DNA from: an uncultured Bacteroidaceae bacterium
GTDB lineage: Bacteria > Bacteroidota > Bacteroidia > Bacteroidales > Bacteroidaceae
Length of the DNA: 64,000 nucleotides
Direction of reading: 5' to 3'
Assembly (NCBI GenBank): GCA_905235565.1
Contig: CAJOLR010000003.1
Coordinates: 1-64,000, forward strand
Both the position numbers and the translations under genes were made by a program. Positions 7,555 through 38,771 of the stretch are shown piece by piece; within the stretch, counting starts at the first letter, position 1; the number at the start of each line of letters is the position of its first letter. The notes below the pieces were generated by a model that had not been told where the DNA came from, searched no databases, and worked only from the letters and a program-made list of their open reading frames with translations.

Positions 7555-7576
7555 CCCTAATAATGTAAGAATATTT

Positions 7577-9025: not shown

Positions 9026-9077
9026 TTTATACAGTTTATGCCTGCAAAGTTAGTGTAAAAAGCACTACCTTCGCATC

Positions 9078-9782: not shown

Positions 9783-9824
9783 TTATAGAATGTTTTATTT
9801 GGCTGAAATCTTTCTAATTGAGCG

Positions 9825-9958
9825 GAACTTTTTGGGGTATCTGTATCAGAAACCATCGACACCCATGTCGCTGTGAATGGGAGGGGCCCGCTCCGAAGGA
9901 GTGGGAGGGATAGGGCCGTTAGGCCCGTAGTTTCAGATACTGATACCCCAAAAAGTTC
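9825..9958. repeat. Palindromic intergenic element with conserved GC-rich core (copy 1)
   Basis: Arms GAACTTTTTGGGGTATCTGTATCAGAAAC / GTTTCAGATACTGATACCCCAAAAAGTTC pair 27/29; core GGGAGGGGCCCG...TGGGAGGGATA...CGTAGTTT. Confidence 0.85.
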
Positions 9959-9975
9959 TCTTGGAAGAATCTGTA

Positions 9976-12177: not shown

Positions 12178-12209
12178 ATCTCAATACTTAATTAATTATC
12201 CTAAAAATA

Positions 12210-14305: not shown

Positions 14306-14317
14306 ATTGTGATGTTT

Positions 14318-15094
14318 TTATCTGTCACGGATAATACCTCTCTCGGAACGTGAGATGAAGTCTATTATGTATTTGACTTGAGGATCTTTTGATATCTCAT
14401 TCTCCTTGATTGCCGCTATGGCCTGAGATACGTTCAGTCCCTGCTGATAAATGATGCGGTATGCGTTGTGGATGGCCTCGATGGTCTCGGCGCTGAATTT
14501 CTCGCGGCGCAGACGCACCAGATTTATACCCATATAAGTGAGTGGGTTGCGACCGGACATGGTGAATGGTGGTACATCCTGGCTTACACCACTTCCGCCC
14601 TGTATCATTACATACCCTCCTATATGTGTAAACTGGTGGATAAGCACACCGGCACTGATGGTGGCGTGGTCCTCGACTTCCACCTCACCGCCCAGTTTCG
14701 TGCTGTTGCCGATTATGCAGTAGCTGCCAACGATGCAGTCATGAGCTATATGCATGCTTTCCATAAGCAGGTTATTGCTGCCAACCACGGTCTTGCCCCT
14801 TGAGGCGGTACCACGGTTGATGGTTACGTTCTCACGTATGCGGTTATTGTCACCTATTTCGGCTGTAGTCTCCTCGCCGATAAACTTGAGGTCCTGCGGA
14901 ATACCTCCGATGACTGCGCCCGGATGTATGGTATTTCCGTTTCCGATACGTGAGCCGTACATGATGCTTACATGCGGCATCAGTATATTGTTATCGCCTA
15001 TCACAACGTTCTTGTCGATGAAACAGAACGGACCTATCTCAACGTTCTTGCCTATCTGGGCAGAAGGGTCGACGTATGCCAGGGGACTAATCAT
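14318..15094 (-). CDS. lpxA: Acyl-ACP--UDP-N-acetylglucosamine O-acyltransferase
   Basis: Left-handed beta-helix hexapeptide repeats; SPLAYVDPSAQIGKNVEIGPFCFID; next to lpxC/lpxD. Confidence 0.95.
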   Translation of the reverse strand: MISPLAYVDPSAQIGKNVEIGPFCFIDKNVVIGDNNILMPHVSIMYGSRIGNGNTIHPGAVIGGIPQDLKFIGEETTAEIGDNNRIRENVTINRGTASRGKTVVGSNNLLMESMHIAHDCIVGSYCIIGNSTKLGGEVEVEDHATISAGVLIHQFTHIGGYVMIQGGSGVSQDVPPFTMSGRNPLTYMGINLVRLRREKFSAETIEAIHNAYRIIYQQGLNVSQAIAAIKENEISKDPQVKYIIDFISRSERGIIRDR

Positions 15095-16482: not shown

Positions 16483-16488
16483 GTTAAG

Positions 16489-17532
16489 TTACTTATCTTC
16501 AAGTTTAGATTTCAGTTCTTCTATCTCTTTCTGAAGCTTTTGGATAGTTTTATTCATCTCAGGAAGATCCCTGAAAATGAGTGATGAACGCAGGAAGTTC
16601 CGGTAACTGATGGATGGATATCCCATTATTGTATCCCCGTCATTGATGCAGCTTAATACACCTGTCTTGGCTGCTATGTTTACTTTGTTGCCCACTGTGA
16701 TGTGTCCAGAGATTCCGCTTTGGCCTCCTATCATACACCAGGAGCCTATCTTGCTTGATCCGGCTATTCCTGTCTGGGCCGATATGACAGTGTGCTCACC
16801 GACTTCTACATTATGTGCCACCTGAACCAGATTGTCCAGCTTGACACCTTTATGGACAACGGTGCGGCCCATGGTGGACCGGTCGATGCAGGTGTTGGCA
16901 CCTATCTCGACATCATCCTCAAGTTCCACTATACCTATCTGGGGAATCTTGTCGTAACCGTTGGGGGTTGGCGCGAATCCGAATCCGTCTGCACCTACAA
17001 CGCTGCCTGCATGCAGTATGCACCGGTTGCCGACCTTACAGCCGTAATAGACCGTAACTTGCGGATAGATTATGCAATCTGAACCTACCGAAGCACCTTC
17101 GCCTATGGTTACATGAGGATAGATCCTGGTATTGTCGCCTATTACAGCACCTTCTTCGATAACAGCAAATGGACCGATATAGACGTTGTTGCCGATACTG
17201 GCTTTCTCTGATACTGATGCCAATGAGCTGATTCCGGTCCTGGCCGGTTTCATTGATGCATAGAGCGACATGAGTCTGGCCAGGCTCTCATATGCATTGT
17301 CAACTCTGACAAGTGTGGCGCTTACCGGCTGTTCAGGCTTGAAATCCCTGTTGACCAGAACGACGCTTGATTGGGTTGAATAAAGATAATGGGTGTATTT
17401 TACGTTCGAAAGAAAAGAGAGTGCACCCGGAACTCCCTCTTCTATCTTGGCGAAAGTATGGACTGTAGCATCTGCGTTCCCGTCAACGGTGCCGCCAAGA
17501 AATTCGGCTATCTGTTTAGCTGTAAATTCCAT
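16489..17532 (-). CDS. lpxD: UDP-3-O-(3-hydroxymyristoyl)glucosamine N-acyltransferase
   Basis: LpxD N-domain plus hexapeptide repeats ([43 protein letters not shown]). Confidence 0.95.
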
Positions 17533-17566
17533 TTGATCTTATGTAAGTCTGCAAATATAAGATTTT

Positions 17567-18385
17567 TTATTTAATAAATAGCGCCATTTCTTCCTGCACC
17601 TCTTTGGCTTTCATACGGGCCACTTGTGCAAACTGCTCTGTATTGTCTGCGTAAATGATTGCACGGCTACTGTTTACAATAAGGCCGCATTTGCTGTTCA
17701 TGCCGTATTTGCATACATCTGTCAACGAACCGCCTTGTGCTCCTATACCCGGAACAAGCAGGAAACTGTCGGGGACGGTCTTGCGGATATCGGTAAGCAT
17801 CTCTGCCCTGGTGGCACCAGCAACGTACATCATGTTGTCGGCATTGCCGCCCCACTCAAGTGACTTGCGCAGAACGTTCTGATACAGTGGAGTGCCATCG
17901 GGATCATTGATGTACTGGAAATCATCGGCACCCTTGTTGCTGGTAAGGGCAAGGAGTATCACCCAGCGACCTTCATGTCCCAGGAACGGGGTTACGCTGT
18001 CCTGTCCCATATACGGTGCAACAGTTACTGAATCAACTTTCATCTCTTCAAAGAAACTCTCGGCATACATCTTCGAGGTGTTTCCGATGTCGCCGCGTTT
18101 GGCGTCGGCAATGATGAACTGGTCCGGATAGTTGGTGCGGATGTAGTCAATGGTCTTGTAGAGGGACTGCATTCCCTTCAGACCGGTGCTCTCATAGAAT
18201 GCCAGATTGGGCTTGTATGCTATGCAGTAGTCTGCTGTCGCGTCTATGATGGCTTTGTTGAAAGCAAATATGGGATCCTCGTCAGACAACAGATGCTGAG
18301 GGATCTTTTTGATGTCAGTGTCAAGACCTACGCACAGAAACGACTTCTTGCGCATTATGTTCTGGAACAACTCTTCTCTTGTCAT
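17567..18385 (-). CDS. pyrF: Orotidine 5'-phosphate decarboxylase (type 2)
   Basis: [42 protein letters not shown]. Confidence 0.93.
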
Positions 18386-18409
18386 ATCTGTTAATTGTTA
18401 GAAATTCCC

Positions 18410-19522
18410 TTACATTTCGGCTTCTTTCATCCGCTCTGCGTTTTCGGCTATTGTCAGTTGGTCTATGCACTCCTGGATCTCACCGTTCATGAATGCGGGT
18501 AGATTGTAAATGGTGTAGTTTATCCGATGGTCGGTTATTCGGCCTTGCGGATAATTGTAAGTGCGTATCTTGGCGGATCGGTCACCTGTGGATACCATAG
18601 TCTTGCGGCGGGCAGCTATGTCATCCATGTATTTCTGATGCTCGCGGTCATAAATCATTGTGCGGAGACGTGACAGGGCACGTTCCTTGTTTTTGGGCTG
18701 GTCACGGGTCTCGGTGCATTCTATGAGAATCTCCTCTATCACTCCGGTGTTGGGATTTTTCCAATTGTAACGGAGCCTTACGCCAGACTCGACCTTGTTC
18801 ACGTTCTGGCCGCCGGCGCCTCCGCTGCGGAATGTATCCCATTTGATCTCACCCTCATTGATCTCCACTTCAAAGGCATCGGCCTCCGGAAGGACAGCTA
18901 CGGTGGCAGCCGATGTGTGTATACGGCCCTGGGTCTCGGTTACAGGAACGCGCTGTACACGATGTACACCGGATTCATATTTTAGGGTTCCGTAGACCTT
19001 CTGTCCGGTAACCGTGAATATAATCTCCTTGAATCCGCCCGACGCACCTTCTGAACATGAAGATACGGCATACTTCCAGCCTTTGGTCTCAAAGTATTTG
19101 CAATACATGCGGAAGAGGTCTCCTGCAAATATGGCTGCCTCATCACCTCCTGTTCCGCCGCGAATCTCCATTATGACATCCTTGTCATCCTGAGGGTCTG
19201 CAGGTATGAGCATCTGTTTTATCTCATCTTCCAGCAGTGGCAGCCGTTCATTTGCCGCATCAAGTTCCTCGCGTGCCATCTGGCGCATCTCAGGGTCACT
19301 CTCGGTTGCCATCAGTTCCCGGGCCCCGGATATGTTATCCTGAAGCCTTATGTATTCCTTGCGTGCGGCAACTACAGGCTCAAGGTCCCGGTATTCACGG
19401 TTCAGTTTGACGAACCGTTTCATATCGGCTATTACCGAAGGGTCGGTTATGAGCAGGCTGACCTCCTGGAATCTCGCCTCCAGACCGTCAAGTTTGTCGA
19501 GCAGACTCTCTGTTGAAGCCAT
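18410..19522 (-). CDS. prfA: Peptide chain release factor 1
   Basis: RGGTGGDEAAIFAGDL and FRSGGAGGQNVNKVESGVRL GGQ motif; NYPQGRITDHRI. Confidence 0.96.
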   Translation of the reverse strand: MASTESLLDKLDGLEARFQEVSLLITDPSVIADMKRFVKLNREYRDLEPVVAARKEYIRLQDNISGARELMATESDPEMRQMAREELDAANERLPLLEDEIKQMLIPADPQDDKDVIMEIRGGTGGDEAAIFAGDLFRMYCKYFETKGWKYAVSSCSEGASGGFKEIIFTVTGQKVYGTLKYESGVHRVQRVPVTETQGRIHTSAATVAVLPEADAFEVEINEGEIKWDTFRSGGAGGQNVNKVESGVRLRYNWKNPNTGVIEEILIECTETRDQPKNKERALSRLRTMIYDREHQKYMDDIAARRKTMVSTGDRSAKIRTYNYPQGRITDHRINYTIYNLPAFMNGEIQECIDQLTIAENAERMKEAEM

Positions 19523-20499
19523 TATTTTCTTGTTACATTATTTACGAATGCAACCGGACCACCTTCAAAGAAGTTGATGATGTTGCGTGATACGAATTCC
19601 GCCATCTCGTTACGTACATCATAGGTCTGAGTGCCTATGTGAGGGGTGATGACCGCATTCTCACAAGCCAGGATTTCCGGACTGACCTTGTCTCCGAACT
19701 CGAATACGTCAAGTCCGGCACCCCAGATCCGCCTGTTCTTGAGAGCCTCGGCCAATGCAAGCTCATCGACTATCGGACCGCGGGCGGTATTGACAAGTAT
19801 GGCGGTCGGTTTCATGAGTTCAATCTGTTCCTTGCCAATCAGGTGCCAGGTCTCCTTTGAGTAAGGAACGTTGACCGATATGAAATCTGAAGTGCGGAGC
19901 AGTTCGTCAAACTCAACGTATGTGGCATCATACTCCTTTTCGGTTTCAGGACTTACACGATGACGGTTGTAATAGATCACTTTCATGCAACTGGCTTTGG
20001 CACGTCTGGCAAGAGCCTGTCCGATCCGCCCCATGCCCAATATTCCGAGAGTCTTGCCGCCAAGGGAGTAACCAAGGTTGGCCAGAAGTGTCCACTCCAA
20101 AGCTCCGGGTATGCGCAAACGACGGTCAACGTCGGTTATCCGGCGTGCTGTGGCCAGCATAAGCCCGAATGCCAGGTCGGCGGTAGGTTCTGTTACCGGT
20201 CCGGGAGTATTGGTTACGGCAATTCCAAGTTCTGTAGCCGTAGGGATATCTATGTTGTCAAATCCGACTGCATAGTTGCTAACCAGTTCCAGACGGGGCA
20301 GGCCGCGTTCCATGAGCTTGCGGTCGACGGGGAAGTTGAACATTGACTGTAGGACGTCATATTCAGGGAGCATATCGTATACTTCATCGTATGTGAAAGA
20401 CTCTCGTCCTTCAGAAGGAAATGTAACATCGTACTTTCTGATCAGTTCCGCATACCCTGTGCGGAACATGTTGTATGTCACTAGAACACGTTTTTTCAT
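19522..20499 (-). CDS. D-isomer-specific 2-hydroxyacid dehydrogenase (glyoxylate/hydroxypyruvate reductase-like)
   Basis: LGILGMGRIGQALARRA Rossmann motif, NTARGPIVDELAL, ITPHIGTQT. Confidence 0.9.
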   Translation of the reverse strand: MKKRVLVTYNMFRTGYAELIRKYDVTFPSEGRESFTYDEVYDMLPEYDVLQSMFNFPVDRKLMERGLPRLELVSNYAVGFDNIDIPTATELGIAVTNTPGPVTEPTADLAFGLMLATARRITDVDRRLRIPGALEWTLLANLGYSLGGKTLGILGMGRIGQALARRAKASCMKVIYYNRHRVSPETEKEYDATYVEFDELLRTSDFISVNVPYSKETWHLIGKEQIELMKPTAILVNTARGPIVDELALAEALKNRRIWGAGLDVFEFGDKVSPEILACENAVITPHIGTQTYDVRNEMAEFVSRNIINFFEGGPVAFVNNVTRK

Positions 20500-20639
20500 G
20501 TCGCTTTATTTTGAGTGCAAAGATAAGCATTACGTAATGTGTATATCTCATAGCAAAGCTTAAATATACTCAAAAAAAGTCCCCAAAGGGTTTTTTATAA
20601 AAACCATTTGCTACTTTTGTAAATCAGCATTGAAAACTT

Positions 20640-23276
20640 ATGAAAAAATTACTGCCAATTGTTGCCGCATTGATTTGTGGATTCATTTCCTGTGCTACAG
20701 ACAATAAGGATGCGGGAAAGTTAGTGATCAACGAAAGGGGTTATTTCGAGACCCGTGGTGTAAATGTGTTGGTTTACTCCAACAACTATCAGGGAGTATT
20801 CTGTGACGAAAAGACTGCAGGCGTGGAAATCGTGCAGCGCGGAGTACGTATCGCGACAGGCGGCGCAGTACGTCTGATGAACACTCCGGAGCAGTGGGAT
20901 ATCTATGCAAGTCTCACGGAACGCACCATCGATACCTTGGGCGGCGTGATAAGCTGCAGGTTCAACTACCCTGACTACAATTTCCGTTACGGGATAACCG
21001 TAAAGCAGGAGGGCAAGGGACTCCGGATGTCGGTTGAACTGGATGATCCGCTTCCTGCCGAGCTGGCAGGTAAGGCAGGACTCAATATGGAGTTCTTCCC
21101 GGCAACCTATTACGGAAAGACCTATCTTGTTGACGGGCAGTCCGAGATATTCCCGCGGTATCCGTCAAGTGACACCGAGATGCGGCCCAAATCAGAGAAG
21201 ATCAATCAGTTCTGGGGACTTTCCACATTCGATGACCGCGGACGCGACGAATTCATCGTACCCAAACCGATCTCCAAAGGACACACCATTGTAATGGCTC
21301 CAGAGGATGAGTCATTGCGTGTACTCTTCCAGTCTGATACTGAGTTGAACCTGTTTGACGGACGCAATCTGTCACAGAACGGAACCTTCGTGGTACGTTC
21401 CATGCTTCCTTCCGGTAAGAAAGGTACCGTGCTTGAGTGGTACGTGGAGCCTACGCCCGATGCCGGCTGGATACGTGAGCCTAACATAGGATTCTCTCAG
21501 ATAGGTTATACTCCCGCCCAGAAAAAGATGGCTGTGATAGAACTGGACCGCAATGACAAGGTGCTGTCCAAAGCCAAGGTGTTCCGTGTGAATGCCGACG
21601 GCAGCCATACCCTTGTCCTGGAGCCGGCAGTAAAGGAGTGGGGGGTATTCTATAACCGCTACAATTATGCCCAGTGCGATTTCAGCGCAGTAACCGATCC
21701 GGGTACTTATTATATAGAATACGGTGGTTTCAAGACAAATCCGTTCCCTATCAACAAGAACGTGTACGATGGCAAGTGGCATAATACGATGGATGTATGG
21801 CTTCCGGTTCAGATGGACCACATGCTTGTGAACGAGGCTTACCGTGTATGGCATGGCCGCTCACACATGGATGATGCTGTTCAGGCTCCAACCAACTATC
21901 AGCAGCATGACGGTTACCGTATGGGCAACAGCACCAACACCAAGTACAAGCCTTACGAGCATATTCCGGGTCTGGCAGTCGGTGCATGGTATGACGCGGG
22001 TGACTTTGATATCCAGTCCGGTACCGTAATCGGTATGACCAATCAGCTGGCCGAGGTCTGGGATGTGTTGCGTCCTGAGCGTGACGAGACATTCATAGAC
22101 CAGAAGACCCAGTTTGTCGACATACATCGTCCTGACGGTCTGCCCGATATGATCCAGCAGGTGGAGCATGGCGCCCTTAACCTTTGCGCCCAGATAGAGA
22201 ACATCGGCTTTATAGCAGGCGGTATTGTACAGGGTAATATGCATCAGTATCATCATCTGGGCGATGCAGTAACCATTACCGACGGTTACATATATGATCC
22301 CAGCCTTAAGCCCTATGAGGTACGCGGCAACCGTTCAGGTACGCTTGATGACCGTTTCGTATTTACCAACAACGCAGGCAATCCTATGAGTAACGTGAAC
22401 GTTTGCGCTGCTTTGGCACATGCGGCTCGTGTTCTTGCCCCGTATATACCGGAAACAGCAGAGCGCTGCAAGAAGAATGCTCTGAAGCTTTGGAAGGAAA
22501 TGGATGACTATCAGGCCAGAATGGCCAACCTGCCTCAGCAGCAACAGGGTAACGGACAGCGTGGCAACCGCGGTCTCGGCGGTGACCGCTCAAGTGCTGC
22601 CATCCAGTTGTGGCTCCTGACAGGCGAGCAGAAGTACAAGGACATGTTCCTGCCTGGCGTTATGCGTCAGATTGAGGCAGCCCGTACTGCACCGCAGGGG
22701 GCCGAGGATAACCGCACCGGTGGCGGAAGCGCCATGCGTGCCCCGCGTGTAAACATCACCACAGCTCTCTCGCTTCTGCCTTACATGGACGATGATTTCA
22801 AGGCTCAACTCCGTGAGGTCATTCCGGTATTCGTTGAGGATGCCAAGCGTACTGCGGAGTCAACTCCTTACGGCGTTCCCGTGGCAGGAGGATCTTGGGG
22901 TGGCAGCGAGCGGGTTATCAGTTGGGCCCAGAACAACTATATGGTATGGCGTTATTATCCTGATTTGATTGATCCTGAGCTGGTTCTTTCAGGACTTAAT
23001 TTCATATACGGCAATCATCCCTATTCGAATGTATCGTTCGTGACAGCTGTCGGTGTCAATACCAAAAAAGTGGCTTACGGCAACAACCGTGCGGACTATA
23101 CCTTCATTCCTGGCGGAATAGCTCCCGGTCTGGTATTGCTGCAGCCCGATCTCCTGGAACACAAGGATGACTATCCGTTCCTGTGGGGCGAGAATGAGTG
23201 CTGCACCAGGACTGTTCCTTCGTACGTGACATTGTCTATAGGTGCCGAGGAGATAGCTGCCGCAATTAACAAATGA
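20640..23276 (+). CDS. Glycoside hydrolase family 9-like (cellulase-type) lipoprotein
   Basis: Lipobox GFISCATD; cellulase N-terminal Ig-like region; GAWYDAGDFD catalytic motif; GNHPYSNVSFVTAVG; GENE near C-terminus. Confidence 0.82.
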   Translation: MKKLLPIVAALICGFISCATDNKDAGKLVINERGYFETRGVNVLVYSNNYQGVFCDEKTAGVEIVQRGVRIATGGAVRLMNTPEQWDIYASLTERTIDTLGGVISCRFNYPDYNFRYGITVKQEGKGLRMSVELDDPLPAELAGKAGLNMEFFPATYYGKTYLVDGQSEIFPRYPSSDTEMRPKSEKINQFWGLSTFDDRGRDEFIVPKPISKGHTIVMAPEDESLRVLFQSDTELNLFDGRNLSQNGTFVVRSMLPSGKKGTVLEWYVEPTPDAGWIREPNIGFSQIGYTPAQKKMAVIELDRNDKVLSKAKVFRVNADGSHTLVLEPAVKEWGVFYNRYNYAQCDFSAVTDPGTYYIEYGGFKTNPFPINKNVYDGKWHNTMDVWLPVQMDHMLVNEAYRVWHGRSHMDDAVQAPTNYQQHDGYRMGNSTNTKYKPYEHIPGLAVGAWYDAGDFDIQSGTVIGMTNQLAEVWDVLRPERDETFIDQKTQFVDIHRPDGLPDMIQQVEHGALNLCAQIENIGFIAGGIVQGNMHQYHHLGDAVTITDGYIYDPSLKPYEVRGNRSGTLDDRFVFTNNAGNPMSNVNVCAALAHAARVLAPYIPETAERCKKNALKLWKEMDDYQARMANLPQQQQGNGQRGNRGLGGDRSSAAIQLWLLTGEQKYKDMFLPGVMRQIEAARTAPQGAEDNRTGGGSAMRAPRVNITTALSLLPYMDDDFKAQLREVIPVFVEDAKRTAESTPYGVPVAGGSWGGSERVISWAQNNYMVWRYYPDLIDPELVLSGLNFIYGNHPYSNVSFVTAVGVNTKKVAYGNNRADYTFIPGGIAPGLVLLQPDLLEHKDDYPFLWGENECCTRTVPSYVTLSIGAEEIAAAINK

Positions 23277-23299: not shown

Positions 23300-24178
23300 G
23301 TGTCGATAACAATAAAAGGCTTAAGCCATTATTACCCAAACGGTAAGAGAGCTCTTACCGATATAAACCTGGAGATACCTTCCGGAATGTTCGGACTTTT
23401 AGGGCCTAACGGCGCCGGCAAGTCCACCCTTATGCGAATACTTGTAACCCTGATGGAACCTACAGAAGGGCAGATAGATGTGTGCGGTTATGATATACGT
23501 ACACAGCGCAAGGAAGTAAGGCGCATTTTGGGTTATCTGCCGCAGGATTTCAGGTTTTTCGCCAAGTATAAGGTCCGTGAATTCCTGGAGTACGCAGCGG
23601 CGCTGACAGGTATGACCAACTCAGCGGAGCGCGGCAAGGCTGTTGACGCCATGCTGGAGCAGGTGGGCCTGTACGAAGCGCGTGACCGTTATGCGCAGAA
23701 TCTTTCGGGTGGTATGAAACGCCGTCTCGGTATTGCCCAGGCTCTGATTCATAAGCCTTTGGTCCTGGTGGTTGACGAACCTACCACCGGACTTGACCCC
23801 GAGGAACGCATCAGGTTCCGTAACCTGCTTAGTGAGGCCAGTTCAAAGGACACCACAATTATACTTTCAACCCATATTGTCGGCGACATATCAAGTTCAT
23901 GTACTGAAATGGCTATGCTCAACCAGGGCCAGGTCATGTTCAGGGGATCGCCTGCAGGAATGCTCAGGGAGACCGAAGGCAAGGTCTGGCGTATGCAGGT
24001 TACCAATGAGCAGTACGCTGAGATAAATCAGAAATACGCAGTGATATCCACTATACCACACGGTCTGGGATGGGATTTGCAGGTTGTGGCAAAGGAGTGT
24101 CCCGGATATGGAGCCGTGAGTTATCCTCCAAACCTGGAGCATGCATACGTTTATTTTACTGAGATTAAGGATAAGTAG
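23300..24178 (+). CDS. ABC transporter ATP-binding protein
   Basis: GPNGAGKST, LSGGMKRRLGIAQAL, LVVDEPTTGLDP, STHI; GTG start. Confidence 0.92.
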   Translation: MSITIKGLSHYYPNGKRALTDINLEIPSGMFGLLGPNGAGKSTLMRILVTLMEPTEGQIDVCGYDIRTQRKEVRRILGYLPQDFRFFAKYKVREFLEYAAALTGMTNSAERGKAVDAMLEQVGLYEARDRYAQNLSGGMKRRLGIAQALIHKPLVLVVDEPTTGLDPEERIRFRNLLSEASSKDTTIILSTHIVGDISSSCTEMAMLNQGQVMFRGSPAGMLRETEGKVWRMQVTNEQYAEINQKYAVISTIPHGLGWDLQVVAKECPGYGAVSYPPNLEHAYVYFTEIKDK

Positions 24179-27579: not shown

Positions 27580-29088
27580 ATGATAAAAAAACAATCTTTG
27601 ATTACTGCAATTGCTGTGTTTGGATTGGCCACGGCCTTCGGAACCGGAGCCAAGGCACAGATTGTACTTACCATGGAGCAGGCTCTGGAGTATAGTGCCG
27701 AGCATAATCCGGATCTTAAAAACTCCCGCATGAGCATGGAGCGTTACGAGCAGAACCTGATTGCCCAGAGGGCATCACTCAAGTCAAGGTTCTCACTTAA
27801 CCTGCAGCCACTATCATACTCCCAGTCGCGTCAGTTTGACAGCCGTTACTCGGACTGGTATACTAACCGTTCATTCTCATCTTCAGGCACATTCAGCATT
27901 TCACAGCCAATTATATGGACTGATGCCACGCTGTCACTGAACAACAGCCTGTCATGGCAGAACAACGAATCTACCGTAGGCGGTAAAACCAACACCAACC
28001 GCGCTTTCAGCAACAGTCTTTATCTGAGTCTGAACCAGCCCCTGTTTACTTATAACAGGACCAGGATGAACATGCGTCAGATAGAGATGGACTATGAGAA
28101 TGCCCGCATAAACTACGCACTGCAGAGACTTAACGTGGAGCGTAACATAACAAGCCAGTTCTACAGCCTGTTCATGTCACAGCAGAACCTTGCCATCAGC
28201 GAATCGGAACTTGAGAACGCCGAGAGGAACTTCAACATAATAAAGGACAAGGTTGAGGCCGACCTGACTACAAAGGATGAATACTATCAGGCAGAGCTTA
28301 ACCTCGCCCAGTCACGTTCCAGCCTGGAGAACCAGAGGGTGAGTCTGGAGAACGCCAAGGATAATTTCAAGCAGGTTCTGGGAATACCCCTGGAGGAGGA
28401 TATAATTGTGGTGTGCGACATTGAGGCCGAACCGGTATATGTGGATTTTGACAAGGCACTTGAGAGTGCAATGACAACAAGACTTGAGTTGAGACAGCGT
28501 CAGATTTCAAGGGAACAGCAGGAGATGTCTATGATTCAGGTCAAGGACAATGACAGTTTCAACGGCAGCATATCGCTTTCGCTCGGTATCATGGGCGATA
28601 ATCCGGAATTTAACCATGTGTATGACAATCCTACCAACAATCCCCGCGTGTCTGTTTCATTCAGCGTTCCGCTCTATGACTGGGGTGCACGCAAGGCACG
28701 CATCAAGGCCGCGGAGATAGGAAGGCAGATCTTTGAGCTGAGCGCCGAGGAGGAACTCAAGAGCATTGAGATGAACGTACGCAGTACCTGCCGCAGTCTG
28801 GATAATCTGGTAGGACAGATCTCGATAGCCGAGCAGAGCCAGCGTAACGCCCAGCTTACATACGACCTCAACGAGGAGCGTTACCGCAACGGTGAGCTGA
28901 CCGGACTGCAGATGAACCAGTTCCAGAATCAGCTGTCAAACAGCAAGATGTCATACACACAGGCCATCATAAACTATAAGGTCCAGCTTCTTAATATCAA
29001 GGTCCTGACCCTATTTGACTTTGAGAAGAATGAGCCGGTTGTACCTATTACGTATGAGCAGAGCACTGAAAAGAATAAGAAGAAATAA
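27580..29088 (+). CDS. TolC-family outer membrane efflux protein
   Basis: Signal peptide, long alpha-helical repeats, two TolC-like halves (TKDEYYQAELNLAQSRSSLENQRVSLENAKDNFKQVLG). Confidence 0.9.
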   Translation: MIKKQSLITAIAVFGLATAFGTGAKAQIVLTMEQALEYSAEHNPDLKNSRMSMERYEQNLIAQRASLKSRFSLNLQPLSYSQSRQFDSRYSDWYTNRSFSSSGTFSISQPIIWTDATLSLNNSLSWQNNESTVGGKTNTNRAFSNSLYLSLNQPLFTYNRTRMNMRQIEMDYENARINYALQRLNVERNITSQFYSLFMSQQNLAISESELENAERNFNIIKDKVEADLTTKDEYYQAELNLAQSRSSLENQRVSLENAKDNFKQVLGIPLEEDIIVVCDIEAEPVYVDFDKALESAMTTRLELRQRQISREQQEMSMIQVKDNDSFNGSISLSLGIMGDNPEFNHVYDNPTNNPRVSVSFSVPLYDWGARKARIKAAEIGRQIFELSAEEELKSIEMNVRSTCRSLDNLVGQISIAEQSQRNAQLTYDLNEERYRNGELTGLQMNQFQNQLSNSKMSYTQAIINYKVQLLNIKVLTLFDFEKNEPVVPITYEQSTEKNKKK

Positions 29089-29104: not shown

Positions 29105-30166
29105 ATGAAATCAGGAATCATCGTACTTTCGCTAACAGCGCTTTCTGTCCTTCTGATGACAGGGTGCAGACAAGAGAACACTATGAATCGTAATGAGATA
29201 CCCACACCGGTATCCGTCTCTGACATTTCCTATGGCTCTGTGAGCAGGATATTCACCACAAACAATACCGCCATATCAAATGCTGAGGCCGAGCTGTCGA
29301 CAGAGATGGCCGGAAAGTATCATCTTCAGAAGAATCCGGCTACCGGCAAGCCTTATAAACTGGGTGACAGGGTTAAGAAAGGAGCTCTCATTGTCCGTAT
29401 TGAGGACAAATCTTATGAGAACGGTATCTCAATCGAGTCCAAGCGTCTTAACCTGGAGCTTGCCGAGCAGGAACAGGCCAAGACAAAGTCACTCTACGAG
29501 AAGGGCGGTGCCACATTGACTGAGGTAAAGAACTCCGATATCAAGATCATGAACTCCCGTCTGGACTATGAGAACGCCCAGATGAATCTGGAGAAGATGA
29601 ACATAAGGGCTCCGTTCGACGGTGTGATAGTCAATCTTCCGCATTTCTCGTCCGAGGCCAAGGTAAACAGCGGTACATCTGTGGTCACCATTATGGATTA
29701 CAGTTCGATGCTGCTTGAGATAAATCTGCCTGAGAGTGCGATCAATGAGGTAAAGGTAGGACAGAAGGCTTACATTACCCATTATACTTTGCCCAAGGAC
29801 ACCATTATCGGCGAAATTACAGAACTTTCTCCGGCCATCAGTTCCGAGACCCGTACATTCAAGGGCAAACTTGTGATTGACAACAAGGATTTGCTTATCA
29901 GGCCGGGTATGTTCGTAAAGGCCGATATCGTAACGGAGAGCCACAGCTCGACAATAGTTATACCTAAGAATATTGTCCGCAACGAGCGCAACAGACGTAT
30001 CGTGTTCGTGGTAGACCAGGGCATAGCCAGGGCAAAGCAGATCAGATTGGGGCTTGAGGAGAAGAACAGCGTTGAGGTACTGAGCGGTCTGGATAAGGAC
30101 GATCAGCTGATCATACGAGGTTTTGAGACCCTGAGAGACGGTTCAAAGGTTAAGATTCAGAGATAA
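29105..30166 (+). CDS. RND efflux membrane fusion protein (periplasmic adaptor)
   Basis: Lipobox LLMTGCRQ; lipoyl/barrel-sandwich (NIRAPFDGVIVNLPHFSSEAKVNSGTSVVTI). Start taken at MKSGIIV (29105), inside track ORF 29015. Confidence 0.9.
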   Translation: MKSGIIVLSLTALSVLLMTGCRQENTMNRNEIPTPVSVSDISYGSVSRIFTTNNTAISNAEAELSTEMAGKYHLQKNPATGKPYKLGDRVKKGALIVRIEDKSYENGISIESKRLNLELAEQEQAKTKSLYEKGGATLTEVKNSDIKIMNSRLDYENAQMNLEKMNIRAPFDGVIVNLPHFSSEAKVNSGTSVVTIMDYSSMLLEINLPESAINEVKVGQKAYITHYTLPKDTIIGEITELSPAISSETRTFKGKLVIDNKDLLIRPGMFVKADIVTESHSSTIVIPKNIVRNERNRRIVFVVDQGIARAKQIRLGLEEKNSVEVLSGLDKDDQLIIRGFETLRDGSKVKIQR

Positions 30167-30181
30167 ACTACACTTTAAGGG

Positions 30182-33100
30182 ATGAAAAGACTGGTAAGTT
30201 GGGCGGTCAGGAATCCGGTCACTGTCACCATGGCGGTGCTGGCCATACTGCTGCTCGGAAAGATATCATATGACAGGTTGAGCGTGGAGCTGTTACCAAG
30301 CATGAACAGCCCCCGCCTGTTTGTTGAGATAGACGCCGGTGAGCGTCCGCCCGAAGAGATAGAGAAACAGTTCGTGCGCAGCATGGAGTCTCAGATTGCC
30401 CGTCAGAGCGACGTGCGCAATGTCTCATCGGTTGTAAAGGTTGGTACCGCCAGGATAACGGTTGAGTACGCATGGAGAAAGAACATGGATGAGGCGTTCC
30501 TGGACCTGGAGAAGGCCATGAGCAGTTTCTCTCAGGACAGTCGTGTGACAGACCTCAGGATATCACAGAAGGACCCCACCACTGCACCTATAATGATAAT
30601 AGGATTCTCCAATCCGGATATAGCCGATATGGCCGAACTCCGTAAGGTGGCCGACTCCTATGTGTGCAACGAGCTGATGAGGGTTGAGGGTGTGGCCGAT
30701 GTGTCATTGGCCGGTGACGAGTTTACCAATCTGGTGATCGAGGCCGATCCGTACAAGCTGAAGGCTTTTGGCATCACAGTTGACAACATATCGTCACGTA
30801 TCCAGGAGAGCAACCAGAGAGTATCGGGCGGAAGGATCTCGGAGCAGGGATTCCAGTATCTGGTAACCGGATCCAACACTCTGACAGATGAGGTCGCGTT
30901 CGGCAATATCATAGTGGGATACAAGAACACTGAGGCCCAGCAGGGCCAGGTGGGCGAATTTGCATCGGCCAGCATGGCTCCCATTTACCTGCGCGATGTG
31001 GCTACCATCCACTTTGAGAACCGCGCCCCTGAGAATATCGTAAGGGTTAACGGCAACCGCAGCATAGGCATCTCCGTATTCAAGGAGATGGATTTCAACA
31101 CGGTCAAGGCTGTTGAAGGCATAAAGACCAGCATGAGCAAGATACGTAAGTCTCTGCCGGGTTATGAATTCATAGTAATCAGTGACCAGGCCACATTCAT
31201 CAACAACTCCATAGGAGAGGTCAAGAACAGTGCACTTCTGGGTATACTCCTGGCGGTAATTGTTTTGTTTGTATTCCTGCGCAGGGTAGGAACAACCCTT
31301 ATAGTGGCCATTTCAATACCGGTTTCCATAATAGCTACCTTCAACCTGATGTTCTTCAGCGGGCTGACCATAAACATACTGACGTTGGGAGGACTGGCAT
31401 TGGGTGCGGGTATGCTTGTGGATAATGCCATAGTGGTCATAGAGAGCATATTCAGGAATCAGGAACGTGGGCTTTCGGTGCGTGACGCATCCATTACCGG
31501 AACCTCCGAAGTGGCCGGTGCCGTATCGGCCTCAACCCTTACCACAATCGTGGTGTTCCTGCCTATTGTCTATCTGCATGGAGCTACAGGAGAGCTGTTC
31601 AAGGATGAGGCATGGACGGTAACATTCTCACTGCTTTCATCTCTGTTTGTGGCCATCCTGGTGATACCTACATTGTACGATAAGATATTCGGACGTAAGA
31701 AGGCTGTTCCTCTTAAGAACTTCAGTTCTGTAAACATCAAGGGTTACAGTTCTTTCCTGAAGAAGCTTGTCCAAAAACGCTGGTGGGTGATAACGGCATC
31801 CGTGATACTGGTGGCCGGGACAATATTCCTGCTGCCGTATGTTGGAACCGAATTCATGCCAAAGACTGAGGACAATACCATAAACGTTAAGGTCCGCATG
31901 GCCGAGGGTACCAGTCTTGAACGTACCTCATCTACATTGGAGAGTATCGAGAATCTGGTATTTGACCTGTCTCAGGACAGTGCTTGCATAATCTATACGC
32001 ATGTGGGTCCCGGTGCTTCATCACAGAATCTGGATTTTGAGGGTGAGAATACCGCCTCAATGAAGATACAGCTTTCAAAAGCATCGGCTGTTACACCGGA
32101 CCAGCTTGCCGCTATACTGTCGTCATATATAGAAGGCGTAGAGGGTATGGAACTGACATTCGCTCAGGATGACAACTCCCTTAGTTCCATGATGGGTTCC
32201 GAGGACGCTCCGCTGGTAGTGGAGATAAAGGGTGAGGACCTGGATTTGCTCTCGGTGCTTACCAATCAGGTTAAGGCAGCAGTTGATTCTATCGACTGTC
32301 TTTATAATGTAGAGAGTTCACTGGCCGGCGGTGCACCGGAGATCATCATTACTGTTGACCGCGCCCTGGCTGGTATGAACAATATAAACGTATCCACAAT
32401 AATCACTCAGATACAGCAGCATCTTGACGGCCGTTCCGCCGGACAGATGGATTACAAGGGTGATATGAGGGATATCAATATCAAGGTTCCGGGAGTATCG
32501 CTGGCTGACCTTAACAGCATGGTCATCTCATCGGGCCAGAAGGACTACCGCCTTGCCGAATTGGCCAGGATAAGTGAGAGTACTGCCCCCAAGGAGATAT
32601 ACCGACTCAATCAGAACCGTGTGACCCGCGTCACTGCCGATATTGATGAGTCCGTATCCCTTGACAAGGCTGCACAGCGTACTCGCGAGGCTGTGTCTGG
32701 AATAGAACTGCCGCAGAACTACTCCATAACCGTGACAGGTGAGGAGGAGCGCCGTGCAGAATCAATGAACAGCCTTATGCTGGCTCTGGTGTTGTCCATA
32801 GTACTTGTGTACATGGTAATGGCATCCCAGTTCGAATCACTTCTGCATCCGTTTACCATCCTGCTGACCATTCCATTGGCTTTGGTTGGTGCAGTGCTGA
32901 TGTTCCTGGCAACAGGTATTACGGTCAATATCATGGGTATCATAGGTATGGTGATGCTGGCCGGTATAGCGGTTAACAACTCCATCATTCTGGTGGACCG
33001 CATAGGACAGCTCAAGGATAGTGGCCTTAGCCTGACCGATGCAATAGCAGAGGCAGGACAACAGCGTATCCGACCCATTCTGATGACCAGTCTTACCACT

Positions 33101-33274
33101 ATCCTGGCACTTGTGCCTATGGCATTGGGATTGGGCGACGGAGCGTCCCTGAGTTCTCCCATGGCCATTGCCGTGATAGGCGGTCTGTTCACCTCGACTC
33201 TGCTGAGTCTTGTGGTGATACCTTGTGTGTATTATGTATTTGAGAGCGCCAAAATAAGGATTACCGGAAGATGA
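30182..33274 (+). CDS. RND efflux transporter permease (AcrB/MdtB-like)
   Basis: VRNPVTVTMAVLAILLLGKISYDRLSVELLPSMNSP; LGAGMLVDNAIVVIES; IAVNNSIILVDRIG; 1030 aa. Confidence 0.95.
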   Translation: MKRLVSWAVRNPVTVTMAVLAILLLGKISYDRLSVELLPSMNSPRLFVEIDAGERPPEEIEKQFVRSMESQIARQSDVRNVSSVVKVGTARITVEYAWRKNMDEAFLDLEKAMSSFSQDSRVTDLRISQKDPTTAPIMIIGFSNPDIADMAELRKVADSYVCNELMRVEGVADVSLAGDEFTNLVIEADPYKLKAFGITVDNISSRIQESNQRVSGGRISEQGFQYLVTGSNTLTDEVAFGNIIVGYKNTEAQQGQVGEFASASMAPIYLRDVATIHFENRAPENIVRVNGNRSIGISVFKEMDFNTVKAVEGIKTSMSKIRKSLPGYEFIVISDQATFINNSIGEVKNSALLGILLAVIVLFVFLRRVGTTLIVAISIPVSIIATFNLMFFSGLTINILTLGGLALGAGMLVDNAIVVIESIFRNQERGLSVRDASITGTSEVAGAVSASTLTTIVVFLPIVYLHGATGELFKDEAWTVTFSLLSSLFVAILVIPTLYDKIFGRKKAVPLKNFSSVNIKGYSSFLKKLVQKRWWVITASVILVAGTIFLLPYVGTEFMPKTEDNTINVKVRMAEGTSLERTSSTLESIENLVFDLSQDSACIIYTHVGPGASSQNLDFEGENTASMKIQLSKASAVTPDQLAAILSSYIEGVEGMELTFAQDDNSLSSMMGSEDAPLVVEIKGEDLDLLSVLTNQVKAAVDSIDCLYNVESSLAGGAPEIIITVDRALAGMNNINVSTIITQIQQHLDGRSAGQMDYKGDMRDINIKVPGVSLADLNSMVISSGQKDYRLAELARISESTAPKEIYRLNQNRVTRVTADIDESVSLDKAAQRTREAVSGIELPQNYSITVTGEEERRAESMNSLMLALVLSIVLVYMVMASQFESLLHPFTILLTIPLALVGAVLMFLATGITVNIMGIIGMVMLAGIAVNNSIILVDRIGQLKDSGLSLTDAIAEAGQQRIRPILMTSLTTILALVPMALGLGDGASLSSPMAIAVIGGLFTSTLLSLVVIPCVYYVFESAKIRITGR

Positions 33275-33338: not shown

Positions 33339-36300
33339 ATGAAATACAAGTCATTTATAGACAGAAGGGTAACTATCTGCATGCTTCTGGTAGCGATGAC
33401 GCTGCTGGGCTATTTCTCGTACAAGCAGTTGCCGGTTGAACTGCTGCCCAATACCGAGTTGCCCCAGCTCTATATTTCAGCATCATCGCGCAGCGACCTG
33501 AGTCCGGCATACATGGAGCAGCAGGTCATTATCCCGCTTGAGGGTGCCGTCAGTGCCGTTGGCGGTGTCGAGAATATGGAATCGACAGTATCTGGCAGGC
33601 AGGGCTCCATCAGGGTTGATTTTAAGAGAGGTACCAATCTTAAGATGACCACAGTAAAACTTCAGGAGAAGATCGCATCCATAAGGTCCGATTTTCCGTC
33701 CGATGTTTCGGTTAATGTCCAACAGGCCAATGTCAACGGCATAAGCAACCAGTTTATGTCAATTCAGGTGCGTGGGGCTGGAGGAGTGGACCGTTTGAGG
33801 GCCATTGTCGATAAGGATGTTGTACCCCGTCTGGAAAGCATAGACGGCATTGCAGGCGTGACGGTTTACGGAGGTAGGGTAAAATCCATTGAGATTCGCT
33901 CCAATCCTGAGGCCATGAGTGCATTGCACATATCCAACTCGCAGATAAGCCAGGCGCTAAGCCAGTATAACCAGGAACGTACATTCCTGGGGTATATCAG
34001 TGAGCCGGACAAGAAATACTATGTCCAGCTGGATGCCAACTATGACGACGTGTCGCAGGTTGAGAATCTGGTGGTGGCACAGGGCCCTGTATACCTAAAG
34101 AATGTAGCCACGGTATTCTTTGACTATAAGGAGGAGACTACCATAAGCAGAGTGAACGGAATGGATGCCATCTCCGTATCCCTGGTCAACGGAGCAGGTG
34201 AGAATCTGATGGACCTGTCCAAGAGGACGCTTAAGCGTATTGACGAGGTTAACCGTGAGGTGGCCGGTCAGGACCTTCAGCTTGTGGTTCAGTCCAACTC
34301 TGCCGACCAGATAAGCAACAATATATCCCAGATAGTAAAACTTGCTTTGATTGGCGGATTACTGGCAATTCTGGTTCTGTGGTTCTTCCTGCGCAACCTG
34401 AGCCTGGTGTTTTTCATAGCATTGTCAATTCCGGTTTCGGTATTGTCGGCATTCAACATATTCTATGCAGCCGGCATATCCATCAATACACTTACTCTGT
34501 TGGGTATCGCATTGGCCATAGGTATGTTGTTGGACAGCAGTATAGTGGTGCTGGAGAACATATACCGTCTGGCCTCCATGGGAATGCCGCCGCGACTGGC
34601 GGCATTGCAGGGAGTCAAGGAGGTACGTAAAGCCCTCATAGCGTCCACGCTGACTACAATAACGGTTTTCCTGCCGTTTGTGTTCTCCGATGAACCGATG
34701 ATTAAACTGCTGGGTCGGAATATAGGCTTTTCAATTATCTCTACGCTGATATTCTCACTTCTGGTGGCTGTTACTTTCATTCCAATGGCAACAGCTGCCA
34801 TGATGGAGCGCGGGGGTGGCGGAAACAGTGTCTTCTTCAAGAAGATGTCCATACACGACCGCCCGCTTCAGATGTATTCCACACTACTCAAGACATGTTT
34901 GCGTAAGCCAGGTCCTACAGTGGGTACAGCAGTGGCTATCCTGGTTATAGCATTCATATTCGCCCTGTCCCGCAATACCGGCCAGAACCGACAGGTGGAC
35001 AGTGACCGGATCAATGTAAGCATTACCATGCCCAGCGGAAGCACTCTGGATGACACAGACCAGGCGACTGCCATGCTTGAGGCACGTCTGGACAGCTTCC
35101 CTCAAAAGAAGGATGTAATGAGCCGTATCCAGGAGGAGCAGGCCTCTATCACAGTTACTCTAAAGGAGGGCTACAACAAGAAGGGTGGTATGACCATTAA
35201 CCAACTTGTTGAAGAGATGAGTGATGTGCTTGCCCTTGAGAATGAGATTGACGTCAGGGTTACTCCAGGTTATGCCAGAGGTAATCAGAATGCATCAGGA
35301 CTCAGTTCCATTACAAGGTTCATGAGCGTGCTTGGCGTGGGCGACAACACGGAGAGAATAGTGGTCAAAGGTTCCGATACCGAGACAATGCGTATCGTCT
35401 CGAATAACCTGAGATACTATCTGGAACAGTTGGAGTTTGTCCGTAATGTCAGAGTAGACAATCCCGGTGGCCGTCGTGAGGTCCAGCTTACGTTCGATCC
35501 TGTGGCAATGGCATCGTACAATATCACCAATCAGGCTGTCACATCTGCATTGGGTTCACTAAACCGTTCCACCAGTACCGGAGCCAGCTTCAAGGTTGGT
35601 ACCGACGAATATGACATAGTCATAATGGATGACCTCACCGAAGAAGAGGAGGAGGCCGGACGTTGGGAGAAGACCATGGATGACCTTCGTCGTGTCATAG
35701 TCACTGATGCAAATGGCGGCACCCATGAGTTGCAGCAGATTGCCAACATCCGTCTTAGCCGCGGACCGTCGGAGGTGCGTCGTGTCAACCGTGACCGCAG
35801 GGTAAATGTTACCTATTCAATATCCCAGAGCGAAGAACTTCCCAAGGATGTTCTGGACGGCTATCACGACCAGATAGATGACCTGATAGCAACTTACAAC
35901 CTACCGTCAGGTCTGGCACTTGAGGTTCAGCGCGGCGATGACTCCACAAGTGAGTTCAAGTTTCTGATACTGGCATCCATCATACTGATATTCATGATAC
36001 TGGCATCGGCATTCGAGTCACTTACCACACCTGTGGTACTGCTGTTCTCAATACCGCTGGCAGCCATCGGCTCACTCCTGGCCCTGTTGCTGTCGGGCAA
36101 CAACCTGATGAATGCCAATACCCTGACCGGATTCCTTATCCTGCTGGGTATTGTGGTCAATAACGGCATAATACTGATTGACTACTCATCAACCTTGCGC
36201 CGTAGGGGGTACAGCCGCATGAGAGCCATCATGACCAGCGGATACTCGCGCCTGAGACCTATCTGCATAACCACTATCACCACTATAGTCACGCTTATTC

Positions 36301-38042
36301 CGATGGCCATGGGTGACAATGAGTATGCTGGTGCGATAGGTGCTCCGTTTGCGCTGACTGTAATAGGAGGTCTTACATTCTCGGCTATACTTACCCTGCT
36401 GCTTATTCCTACGCTCTACATCTCATTCGAGAACATGAGAGCCTGGTATAAGGGATTGGGCCGGTACACCCATATTCTGCACATAATCATATTTGCAGTA
36501 GGTGTGCTTGCAATCATATCCGGTGTCAGGGGTATATTCAAGATACTGCTTTACATAATTCTGTTGGCCCTGCTAATTCCGGGTGTGACATATTTTGTAA
36601 AGAGCTCCGTAAGGATTGCCCGTAAGGATGTCGTCAAGCCCGATGAACCTATCGTGATAGAGGTGCGTAACCTGGTTAAGGTGTATGACTGGTACAGCCT
36701 GTTCCTGCGCCAGTGGCGTAGCGGACTCAACATACGCCGGCGTCTGGGACTGTCACGCAGTTTCCGTCACGCAAAGGATTTCGTGAGCCTGATATGGCAG
36801 GTTGTCGTGTTTGCATACACCGGCTATCTGGCAGGATGGTATTTTGAGAAACAGGGTTGGATACTGCTAATGACAATCATAACACTGGCAGGTCTGAACA
36901 ATATCATCAGGGCTATCCTGGAGTATATCGCTTTCAATTTCAGGAAAGGTGCCGTGGTGACTAAAGTAATCAGGAAGATACTCTACTGGGTATTACCTAT
37001 ATGTGCCATACTGTTCCTGAACACCCGTCTTGAGAGCAGGGGATTCGTAGTATTCATAGCTGCAGTCTGGTTGCTGGGGCTGCTCATCCGCAAGACATCG
37101 GATTATCTCTATGATAACAACATCAATGTAGAGCGTCTTGATGGTGAAACCGCCAGAATGCGGCGTGCCTGGTTCCTGTTCGTCAAGAGCATACCTATCA
37201 TCGGTAAACGCAAGAAACCGTTCAAGGCCCTGCGTGGAGTATCGTTTGAGATTCACAGCGGTATGTTCGGCCTGCTGGGTCCTAACGGAGCCGGTAAGTC
37301 AACATTCATGCGAATCGTAACGGGTATCCTTAAGCAGAGCTACGGAACGGTGTTCATCAACGGTATGGATACCCTCAAATACAGGGAGGAGCTCCAGAGC
37401 CTTATCGGATTCCTGCCTCAGGAATTCGGCATGTACGAGGCCATGAGCGCATGGGATTTCCTCAATTACCAGGCCATTCTCAAGGGTATAACTGATGAGA
37501 AGGTGCGTAATGAGAGACTGGAGTATGTGCTTACATCGGTACACATGTATGAGCAGAGGAATTCTGCCATCGGATCTTTCTCGGGCGGTATGAAACAGCG
37601 TATAGGTATTGCACTCATACTGCTCAACCTGCCGCGTATCCTTGTGGTCGATGAGCCTACTGCAGGTCTTGACCCCAGGGAGCGTATCCGTTTCCGTAAC
37701 CTGCTGGTTGAGCTGAGCCGTGACCGCATCGTGATATTCTCAACCCATATCATCGAGGATATAGCCAGTTCATGTAATCAGGTTGTGGTTATTGAGAAGG
37801 GTTCGCTCAAGTACTTTGGGGAGCCCAACGATATGGTCAAACTTGCCAAGGACAAGGTATGGCTGTTTGACATAGAGGCTTCCCGTCTGGGTGAACTTGA
37901 CGAGAAACTCATTGCCAACCATATCCAGGACGGCAGCATGATTAAGGTACGCTACATTTCGCCCACATGTCCGTGGCCGGGTGCCGGGCTGGCTGAACCC
38001 AACCTGGAGGATGCATACCTGTGCCTATTGAAAAACTTATAA
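33339..38042 (+). CDS. RND efflux permease fused to extra TM segments and a C-terminal ABC ATPase domain
   Basis: Full RND half-repeats (YKSFIDRRVTICMLLVAMTLLGYFSYKQLPVELLP, IALAIGMLLDSSIVVLEN, IVVNNGIILIDYS), then a complete NBD (GPNGAGKST, FSGGMKQRIGIAL, LVVDEPTAGLDP, STHI) in one uninterrupted frame. ATG 33339 preferred to GTG 33321. Confidence 0.93.
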   Translation: MKYKSFIDRRVTICMLLVAMTLLGYFSYKQLPVELLPNTELPQLYISASSRSDLSPAYMEQQVIIPLEGAVSAVGGVENMESTVSGRQGSIRVDFKRGTNLKMTTVKLQEKIASIRSDFPSDVSVNVQQANVNGISNQFMSIQVRGAGGVDRLRAIVDKDVVPRLESIDGIAGVTVYGGRVKSIEIRSNPEAMSALHISNSQISQALSQYNQERTFLGYISEPDKKYYVQLDANYDDVSQVENLVVAQGPVYLKNVATVFFDYKEETTISRVNGMDAISVSLVNGAGENLMDLSKRTLKRIDEVNREVAGQDLQLVVQSNSADQISNNISQIVKLALIGGLLAILVLWFFLRNLSLVFFIALSIPVSVLSAFNIFYAAGISINTLTLLGIALAIGMLLDSSIVVLENIYRLASMGMPPRLAALQGVKEVRKALIASTLTTITVFLPFVFSDEPMIKLLGRNIGFSIISTLIFSLLVAVTFIPMATAAMMERGGGGNSVFFKKMSIHDRPLQMYSTLLKTCLRKPGPTVGTAVAILVIAFIFALSRNTGQNRQVDSDRINVSITMPSGSTLDDTDQATAMLEARLDSFPQKKDVMSRIQEEQASITVTLKEGYNKKGGMTINQLVEEMSDVLALENEIDVRVTPGYARGNQNASGLSSITRFMSVLGVGDNTERIVVKGSDTETMRIVSNNLRYYLEQLEFVRNVRVDNPGGRREVQLTFDPVAMASYNITNQAVTSALGSLNRSTSTGASFKVGTDEYDIVIMDDLTEEEEEAGRWEKTMDDLRRVIVTDANGGTHELQQIANIRLSRGPSEVRRVNRDRRVNVTYSISQSEELPKDVLDGYHDQIDDLIATYNLPSGLALEVQRGDDSTSEFKFLILASIILIFMILASAFESLTTPVVLLFSIPLAAIGSLLALLLSGNNLMNANTLTGFLILLGIVVNNGIILIDYSSTLRRRGYSRMRAIMTSGYSRLRPICITTITTIVTLIPMAMGDNEYAGAIGAPFALTVIGGLTFSAILTLLLIPTLYISFENMRAWYKGLGRYTHILHIIIFAVGVLAIISGVRGIFKILLYIILLALLIPGVTYFVKSSVRIARKDVVKPDEPIVIEVRNLVKVYDWYSLFLRQWRSGLNIRRRLGLSRSFRHAKDFVSLIWQVVVFAYTGYLAGWYFEKQGWILLMTIITLAGLNNIIRAILEYIAFNFRKGAVVTKVIRKILYWVLPICAILFLNTRLESRGFVVFIAAVWLLGLLIRKTSDYLYDNNINVERLDGETARMRRAWFLFVKSIPIIGKRKKPFKALRGVSFEIHSGMFGLLGPNGAGKSTFMRIVTGILKQSYGTVFINGMDTLKYREELQSLIGFLPQEFGMYEAMSAWDFLNYQAILKGITDEKVRNERLEYVLTSVHMYEQRNSAIGSFSGGMKQRIGIALILLNLPRILVVDEPTAGLDPRERIRFRNLLVELSRDRIVIFSTHIIEDIASSCNQVVVIEKGSLKYFGEPNDMVKLAKDKVWLFDIEASRLGELDEKLIANHIQDGSMIKVRYISPTCPWPGAGLAEPNLEDAYLCLLKNL

Positions 38043-38054: not shown

Positions 38055-38771
38055 ATGTCAGTAGTCAATACAGTGAAATCTTACGCCCGTCTGTGCGTAT
38101 ACAATATGAGGATCATATTCTCAGGCAAGTTCATCTGGTTCATGCTGGTGGGTTTGGCTCTGTTTTTCTTCCTTATGTATACAGCTGCAGCCAGGGGAAC
38201 TACCTTGAGTCATGGTATGGTTTACAACCAATTGCTCATACCGGGATTGCTGTTGGTATTCTATCCGGCATGTTTCGGCATTCAGAACGATGCCGATCAC
38301 CGCATTCTGGAACTGCTTTTCGGTATTCCCAACTATATGTACAAGGTATGGCTGTTCCGCCTGTTCATGATATATGTAGAGGTATATCTGATTCTGGTGG
38401 TATATGCCTTCCTGGCCAGGATACTGCTCTATCCGGTGGCTCCGTTCACCATGGCGGCCCAGCTTATGCTGCCCGTTATGTTGTTCGGTAACCTGGCATT
38501 CCTGTACTCCACACTTATCCGTAACGGTAACGCAGCGGCAGTACTCTCTGTACTGACGGTGATACTTGCACTGGTACTGGGAAACGTTCAGCTTGTAGAG
38601 AACAAGGTCTGGGATGTAACCATCAACCCATATGATGAGCCGGAGAACATCAACGCCGCCATATGGAGCATGATCCTGCTCAAGAACCGCATCATGATGG
38701 CTGTGGCCGCCATAGTATTTTTGATGTCCGGGCTGCTTGGTTTGCAGAACCGCGGCAAGTTCCTGGGGTAA
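38055..38771 (+). CDS. ABC-2-type membrane permease
   Basis: 238 aa, about 6 TMs, 12 bp downstream of the RND-ABC fusion. Confidence 0.75.
   Translation: MSVVNTVKSYARLCVYNMRIIFSGKFIWFMLVGLALFFFLMYTAAARGTTLSHGMVYNQLLIPGLLLVFYPACFGIQNDADHRILELLFGIPNYMYKVWLFRLFMIYVEVYLILVVYAFLARILLYPVAPFTMAAQLMLPVMLFGNLAFLYSTLIRNGNAAAVLSVLTVILALVLGNVQLVENKVWDVTINPYDEPENINAAIWSMILLKNRIMMAVAAIVFLMSGLLGLQNRGKFLG

Follow-up and report, generated by a model that had tools for sequence, protein, structure and literature searches.

An RND-ABC fusion of Bacteroidales with an ATPase domain predicted to be split by a four-helix membrane module

The ATPase domains of ABC transporters are normally uninterrupted and cytosolic, and contact the membrane part via coupling helices. 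An ATPase joined to a membrane protein is known from MacB of the tripartite pump MacAB-TolC (PMC8277102), and an insertion within an ATPase domain (NBD) is known from CFTR, whose NBD1 carries a disordered regulatory insertion at residues 405-436 (PMC3776845). Neither a fusion of an RND permease with an ABC ATPase nor an NBD split by TM helices was found in any solved structure, in any family model or in the literature searched (subscription papers and preprints lay outside this scope).

The window, i.e., the 64,000-nucleotide stretch from an uncultured Bacteroidaceae bacterium analysed here, encodes a protein with both properties in a single open frame with zero internal stops. The order within the protein is RND domain, TM13-TM14, IVIEVRNLVKVY, four hydrophobic segments over 174 residues, and KKPFKALRGVSFEIHSGMFGLLGPNGAGKST. 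An earlier note had proposed that the ABC domain is interrupted by a membrane module between the A-loop strand and beta2, and this proposal is borne out by conservation, a PSSM, an AF2 model and a sister clade lacking the insert. Its coordinates proved exact (IVIEVRNLVKVY at 36651-36686, and GPNGAGKST ending at 37304), and its estimate of about 175 residues with about four hydrophobic helices agrees with the residue count and with the four hydrophobic segments and four modelled helices. The features of the fusion gene are as follows.

33339..38042, + strand: entire RND-ABC fusion gene (start codon ATG at 33339; in-frame GTG upstream at 33321)
33348..36428, + strand: RND permease domain (PF00873), RND2 of the operon (Pfam, E 7.8e-165)
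36456..36608 (about), + strand: two additional TM helices, TM13 and TM14, between RND and NBD (AF2 helices 2-24 and 28-52; alignment)
36651..36686, + strand: NBD strand beta1 with the A-loop Tyr, IVIEVRNLVKVY (PSSM, conservation, AF2, VIA-align)
36699..36743, + strand: basic helix connecting the A-loop with the insert, model residues 37-51 (AF2; conserved R..W motif)
36771..36842, + strand: insert TM helix 1, model residues 61-84 (AF2, hydropathy, alignment)
36852..36938, + strand: insert TM helix 2, model residues 88-116 (AF2, hydropathy, alignment)
36948..37028, + strand: insert TM helix 3, model residues 120-146 (AF2, hydropathy, alignment)
37038..37115, + strand: insert TM helix 4, model residues 150-175 (AF2, hydropathy, alignment)
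37152..37190, + strand: basic helix leading from the insert to the NBD, model residues 188-200 (AF2)
37221..37277, + strand: NBD strands beta2-beta3, KALRGVSFEIHSGMFGLL region (AF2 strands E211-221 and E224-229)
37278..37304, + strand: Walker A GPNGAGKST (K invariant in 101 aligned members)
37413..37427, + strand: Q-loop LPQEF (Q invariant in 101)
37575..37592, + strand: ABC signature SFSGGM (SGGM invariant in 101)
37638..37655, + strand: Walker B ILVVDE with the catalytic Glu (DE invariant in 101)
37746..37748, + strand: H-loop His (invariant in 101)

The RND domain is full length, with protein residues 3-1029 covering positions 3-1020 of the 1021 in PF00873. The ABC ATPase domain (PF00005) was matched at residues 1297-1441 (E 5.3e-25), and Walker A, Q-loop, signature, Walker B Glu and H-loop are all present. 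By these catalytic motifs, the NBD of the fusion is a complete ABC ATPase, predicted to bind and hydrolyse ATP. TM13 and TM14 were placed with a first AF2 model built from 19 close sequences, which has low confidence overall (pLDDT 67.9; 69-87 in these blocks) and was set aside for the question of the strand.

The neighbours of the fusion in its operon are listed below.

23300..24178, + strand: NBD1, a stand-alone sister ATPase with an unsplit beta1/A-loop
24178..27564, + strand: large protein (1128 aa) with TM segments at its N-terminus, then a sizeable remainder that ends in a Golvesin_C domain; kept in the operon
27580..29088, + strand: outer membrane efflux channel (PF02321; Pfam)
29108..30166, + strand: membrane fusion (adaptor) protein
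30182..33274, + strand: RND1 permease
38055..38771, + strand: 238-aa small membrane protein, a likely ABC-type permease partner by its position after the fusion

The seven-gene order (NBD1, Golvesin_C TM protein, outer channel, adaptor, RND1, RND2-ABC and small membrane protein) is kept across families. As in tripartite RND efflux, an adaptor and an outer membrane channel are encoded with the RND genes; judged from its genes, the operon is a two-RND tripartite efflux system, with export predicted across both membranes. No HExxH motif was found in the 1128-aa Golvesin_C protein, and the 238-aa small membrane protein had no match in Pfam or NCBIfam. A glycoside hydrolase family 9 protein is encoded directly upstream of the operon on the same strand (20640-23276).

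In about 120 of the 123 loci with room for it, the small permease directly follows the fusion. It is absent beside the fusion in some relatives (L091 and perhaps L156), and in a clade of fusions without the insert it is missing from the position behind the fusion; there, a protein of ~290 residues with weak relatedness to it is encoded after NBD1. This distribution suggests that the insert and the small permease may belong together. The L091 locus (11130-21121), from KSB1, has an insert-bearing fusion with no small permease behind it.

From the strand Tyr to KKPFKALRG, the insert has four hydrophobic segments above KD 1.4, and hydropathy agrees with four modelled helices in most rows. Both insert ends and the middle loop are rich in K/R. 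The positive charge at the ends fits a cytosolic location of both, and the even number of helices would keep both NBD halves in the cytosol. Insert length ranges from 107 to 223 aa across members. The shortest inserts, of ~107 residues (L077 at 6863-11470 and L154; also L155), hold about two helices as a reduced module, so that four helices are not strictly required. Further, in L152 and L153 a low-complexity extension of 30-50 residues, very Gly/Ser-rich in L153, separates the A-loop strand from insert helix 1. Searches with the insert gave scattered weak matches in Pfam, the best to DUF4271 (E 0.00036) in 2 of 32 rows, hence no known family, and no PDB match at E<=1; these absent matches do not establish a new fold. 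The insert has no detectable homology to the small permease encoded downstream (hhalign probability 0.4%), and a common origin of the two was rejected. Among 198 genomes of the order, an insert profile gave 22 strong matches and one with a shorter insert, all within fusion frames, while two more (E 1.5e-4 and 8e-4) lay in broken frames and were treated as noise.

One small phylum yielded RND-ABC fusions without the membrane insert (L107 at 6530-10831; L170-L177; L178-L184), which were present in 8 of 14 genomes. In L107 and its relatives, EEPLTIEIDHLTRIY is followed by a soluble loop of 40-55 residues and then by KALDMISMNIESGLFGLLGPNGAGK; the TM13-TM14 pair is likewise missing. This sister clade has the same fusion and the same strand with a soluble loop in place of the helices, which indicates that the helices occupy the beta1-beta2 loop. 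In the NBD tree, all insert-bearing forms make up one clade (98/96), and stand-alone ATPases are separated from both fusion types (95/90). In the RND tree, which is unrooted and has long branches, the RND1 partners from the two operon types cluster with each other (100/100) and stay separate from the RND2 proteins of either type. These trees would fit one ancestral two-RND operon and one RND2-ABC fusion, followed by gain of the insert; alternatively, the sister clade may have lost it.

On balance, and with moderate confidence, we favour an overall explanation in which a split NBD and a membrane dock are placed next to a partner permease in a two-RND export operon. By the model, conservation and the insert-less clade, the NBD chain very probably crosses the membrane four times and returns, after which the A-loop strand pairs with the remaining sheet and the NBD folds normally. 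The insert, perhaps with TM13-TM14, may act as a membrane dock that holds the NBD beside the 238-aa downstream permease. ATP hydrolysis would move a substrate, at a guess probably lipid-like or amphipathic, inside the inner membrane or out of it. The export machine encoded in the same operon (two RND permeases, adaptor and outer channel) might then take this substrate over. By its split arrangement, the NBD may link ATP use to the membrane directly. The functional part of this explanation, namely docking and ATP-driven substrate hand-over, is tentative, and we give it somewhat less than an even chance.

The insert and TM13-TM14 might instead merely anchor the NBD or help the fusion assemble, with no coupling of ATP use to movement. 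A passive role of this kind would suit the sequence of the insert, which is far less conserved than the NBD (only W37, P104, P170 and G173 are invariant in 32 rows), its variable length and the retention of the fusion in the insert-less sister clade. We nevertheless consider it rather unlikely, given that most members retain the four-helix pattern, that the connector helices hold conserved R..W and IPxIGK motifs and that the insert is present across several phyla.

Another possibility is that the RND trimer itself is powered or gated by the NBD, either in place of a separate ABC permease or in addition to one, and that RND1 and RND2 assemble into an MdtBC-like heterotrimer in which two RND2 copies pair two NBDs. 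The covalent fusion to RND2 is conserved in more than 100 members and two different RND permeases are adjacent in every operon seen whole, both of which point this way; furthermore, the nearest solved RND chain by sequence is MdtB, and MdtBC is a known heterotrimer (PMC8277102). However, a dedicated small permease is nearly always found behind the fusion, and the first TM4 Asp is kept in the RND domain, with whose motifs proton drive would be compatible. We therefore regard this reading as unlikely. An export machine driven or gated by ATP, in which an NBD threaded through the membrane at its ATP-gripping loop would couple nucleotide binding to helices beside the RND trimer, appears improbable to a similar degree. 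The proton relay of AcrB (two TM4 Asp and a TM10 Lys) is absent from the RND domain of the fusion, which has D-S in TM4 (D-N/T in relatives) and VVNNG in TM10. As RND1 shows a similar pattern (both permeases have D-S/D-N in TM4 and VNN in TM10 versus D-D and Lys in AcrB), the altered motifs were rejected as proof of ATP drive.

With beta2 lying 174 residues away, IVIEVRNLVKVY could also be a chance look-alike or a relic, beside an NBD without beta1 or with a substitute for it. Conservation argues against this. In 101 split proteins with 37-91% identity to that of the window, the I, K and Y of IxVRNLVKxY (I23, K30 and Y32) are invariant, and L28 and V29 are conserved at ~95%. The loci had been collected by NBD patterns, independently of the strand; the alignment rows were cut by a loose pattern requiring an aromatic at the Tyr site, and none was discarded for a missing aromatic. 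L093, which the Walker A pattern used had overlooked, likewise carries the A-loop Tyr. Furthermore, with a PSSM built from 27 beta1/A-loop strands of stand-alone ATPases, the IVIEVRNLVKVY strand outscored every other site of the ~1570-residue protein in 110 of 112 split proteins, and in the remaining two it ranked second. The earlier note had named a second A-loop strand directly before KKPFKALRG as a finding against its proposal; none is present.

The same note had set beforehand, as a point on which its proposal would stand or fall, whether IVIEVRNLVKVY joins the NBD sheet in a confident structure. In an AF2 model computed from 101 split-type sequences only, with no templates and no stand-alone NBD rows (pLDDT 85.3, pTM 0.72), it does so, as strand E23-32 at pLDDT about 92. 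AF2 may draw on learned knowledge of the ABC fold, and the placement of the strand is thus a prediction and not proof. When the model was compared with solved chains by VIA-align, nearly all of the best 50 rows paired residues 1-5 of single-domain chains with model residues 17-23 and ended near 410-483; for example, FtsE (8hd0_A) aligned over 212 of its 218 residues at 2.0 Å rmsd. Solved NBDs therefore align from their first residues onto the strand and skip the insert, which makes the strand NBD strand 1. In L083 a natural fission has its break before the strand, and strand, insert and NBD are kept in one chain. The two frames of this MAG locus lie at 2094-5504 and 5717-7171, the second beginning just before the A-loop strand. 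Taken with the occurrence of the same strand in insert-less sister fusions, these results make a look-alike or relic very improbable. We conclude from the model that IVIEVRNLVKVY almost certainly pairs into the NBD sheet, and that the beta1-beta2 loop is expanded by a four-helix membrane module.

The same architecture was found in more than 100 distinct sequences, mostly from Bacteroidales, the other carriers being Marivirga and MAGs of Krumholzibacteria, Zixibacteria, KSB1 and Latescibacterota, plus a single Alteromonadaceae MAG. The split fusion was present in 26 of the 37 same-genus genomes examined (incomplete MAGs, in which absences are weak) and in four further families. Sampling across the order detected it in 40 of 295 genomes (2 of 42 matching genomes matched at the NBD level only), and a phylum-wide sample of 296 added 3 further genomes. 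About 50 loci came from named genomes, including the isolates Bacteroides faecis, Parabacteroides massiliensis, Butyricimonas synergistica, Prolixibacter bellariivorans and Marivirga sericea. A plasmid search returned ordinary ABC ATPases only, among the matches listed; one record beyond these spans at least 80% of the query. The long frame is intact in every complete case but L083. Although the window comes from a draft genome of 91 contigs, the chance that the fusion is an assembly or frameshift artefact is negligible, because an intact frame of 1515-1640 aa recurs across species in dozens of independent assemblies, isolates included, which excludes an assembly artefact.

A membrane module inside an ATPase domain, right after the adenine-stacking residue, in a protein joined to a proton-type RND pump offers a natural test case for the link from ATP binding to membrane motion, and for whether or not a single machine draws on both RND and ABC energy sources. 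Its occurrence in gut Bacteroidales, cultured ones included, makes these questions experimentally testable.

Among known systems, the fusion resembles the RND efflux permeases of the HAE/CusA type (PF00873; MdtB, ZneA, AcrB) in its full RND domain and in the adaptor and outer-channel genes of its operon; however, none of the listed PDB chains and NCBIfam models has an ABC NBD at its C-terminus or additional TM helices. With the ABC-2/GldA/DrrA ATPases (PF00005; TIGR03522, TIGR01188) it shares the A-loop and all catalytic motifs. The best NCBIfam ATPase matches of its NBD are GldA and DrrA, both below curated cut-offs (174.7 bits against 402.6 for the GldA equivalog TIGR03522), and the best fold match of the model NBD by VIA-align is the T. 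maritima ATPase 4yer. It differs from these ATPases in having a four-TM module between beta1 and beta2 and in being joined to an RND permease. MacB is likewise a fusion of an ATPase and a membrane protein within a tripartite pump, but its NBD is N-terminal and unsplit, its permease is of the FtsX type and it has no RND domain. Vibrio VarABCDEF, an ABC-only MacB-like pump, was rejected as a precedent. The regulatory insertion of CFTR, which follows the A-loop W401, lies at the same site as the insert of the fusion, with the A-loop strand on one side and the Walker A segment on the other, and indicates that the beta1-beta2 loop tolerates insertions. Nevertheless, the CFTR insertion is ~32 residues long, disordered and soluble, whereas that of the fusion has ~174 residues and is predicted to cross the membrane.
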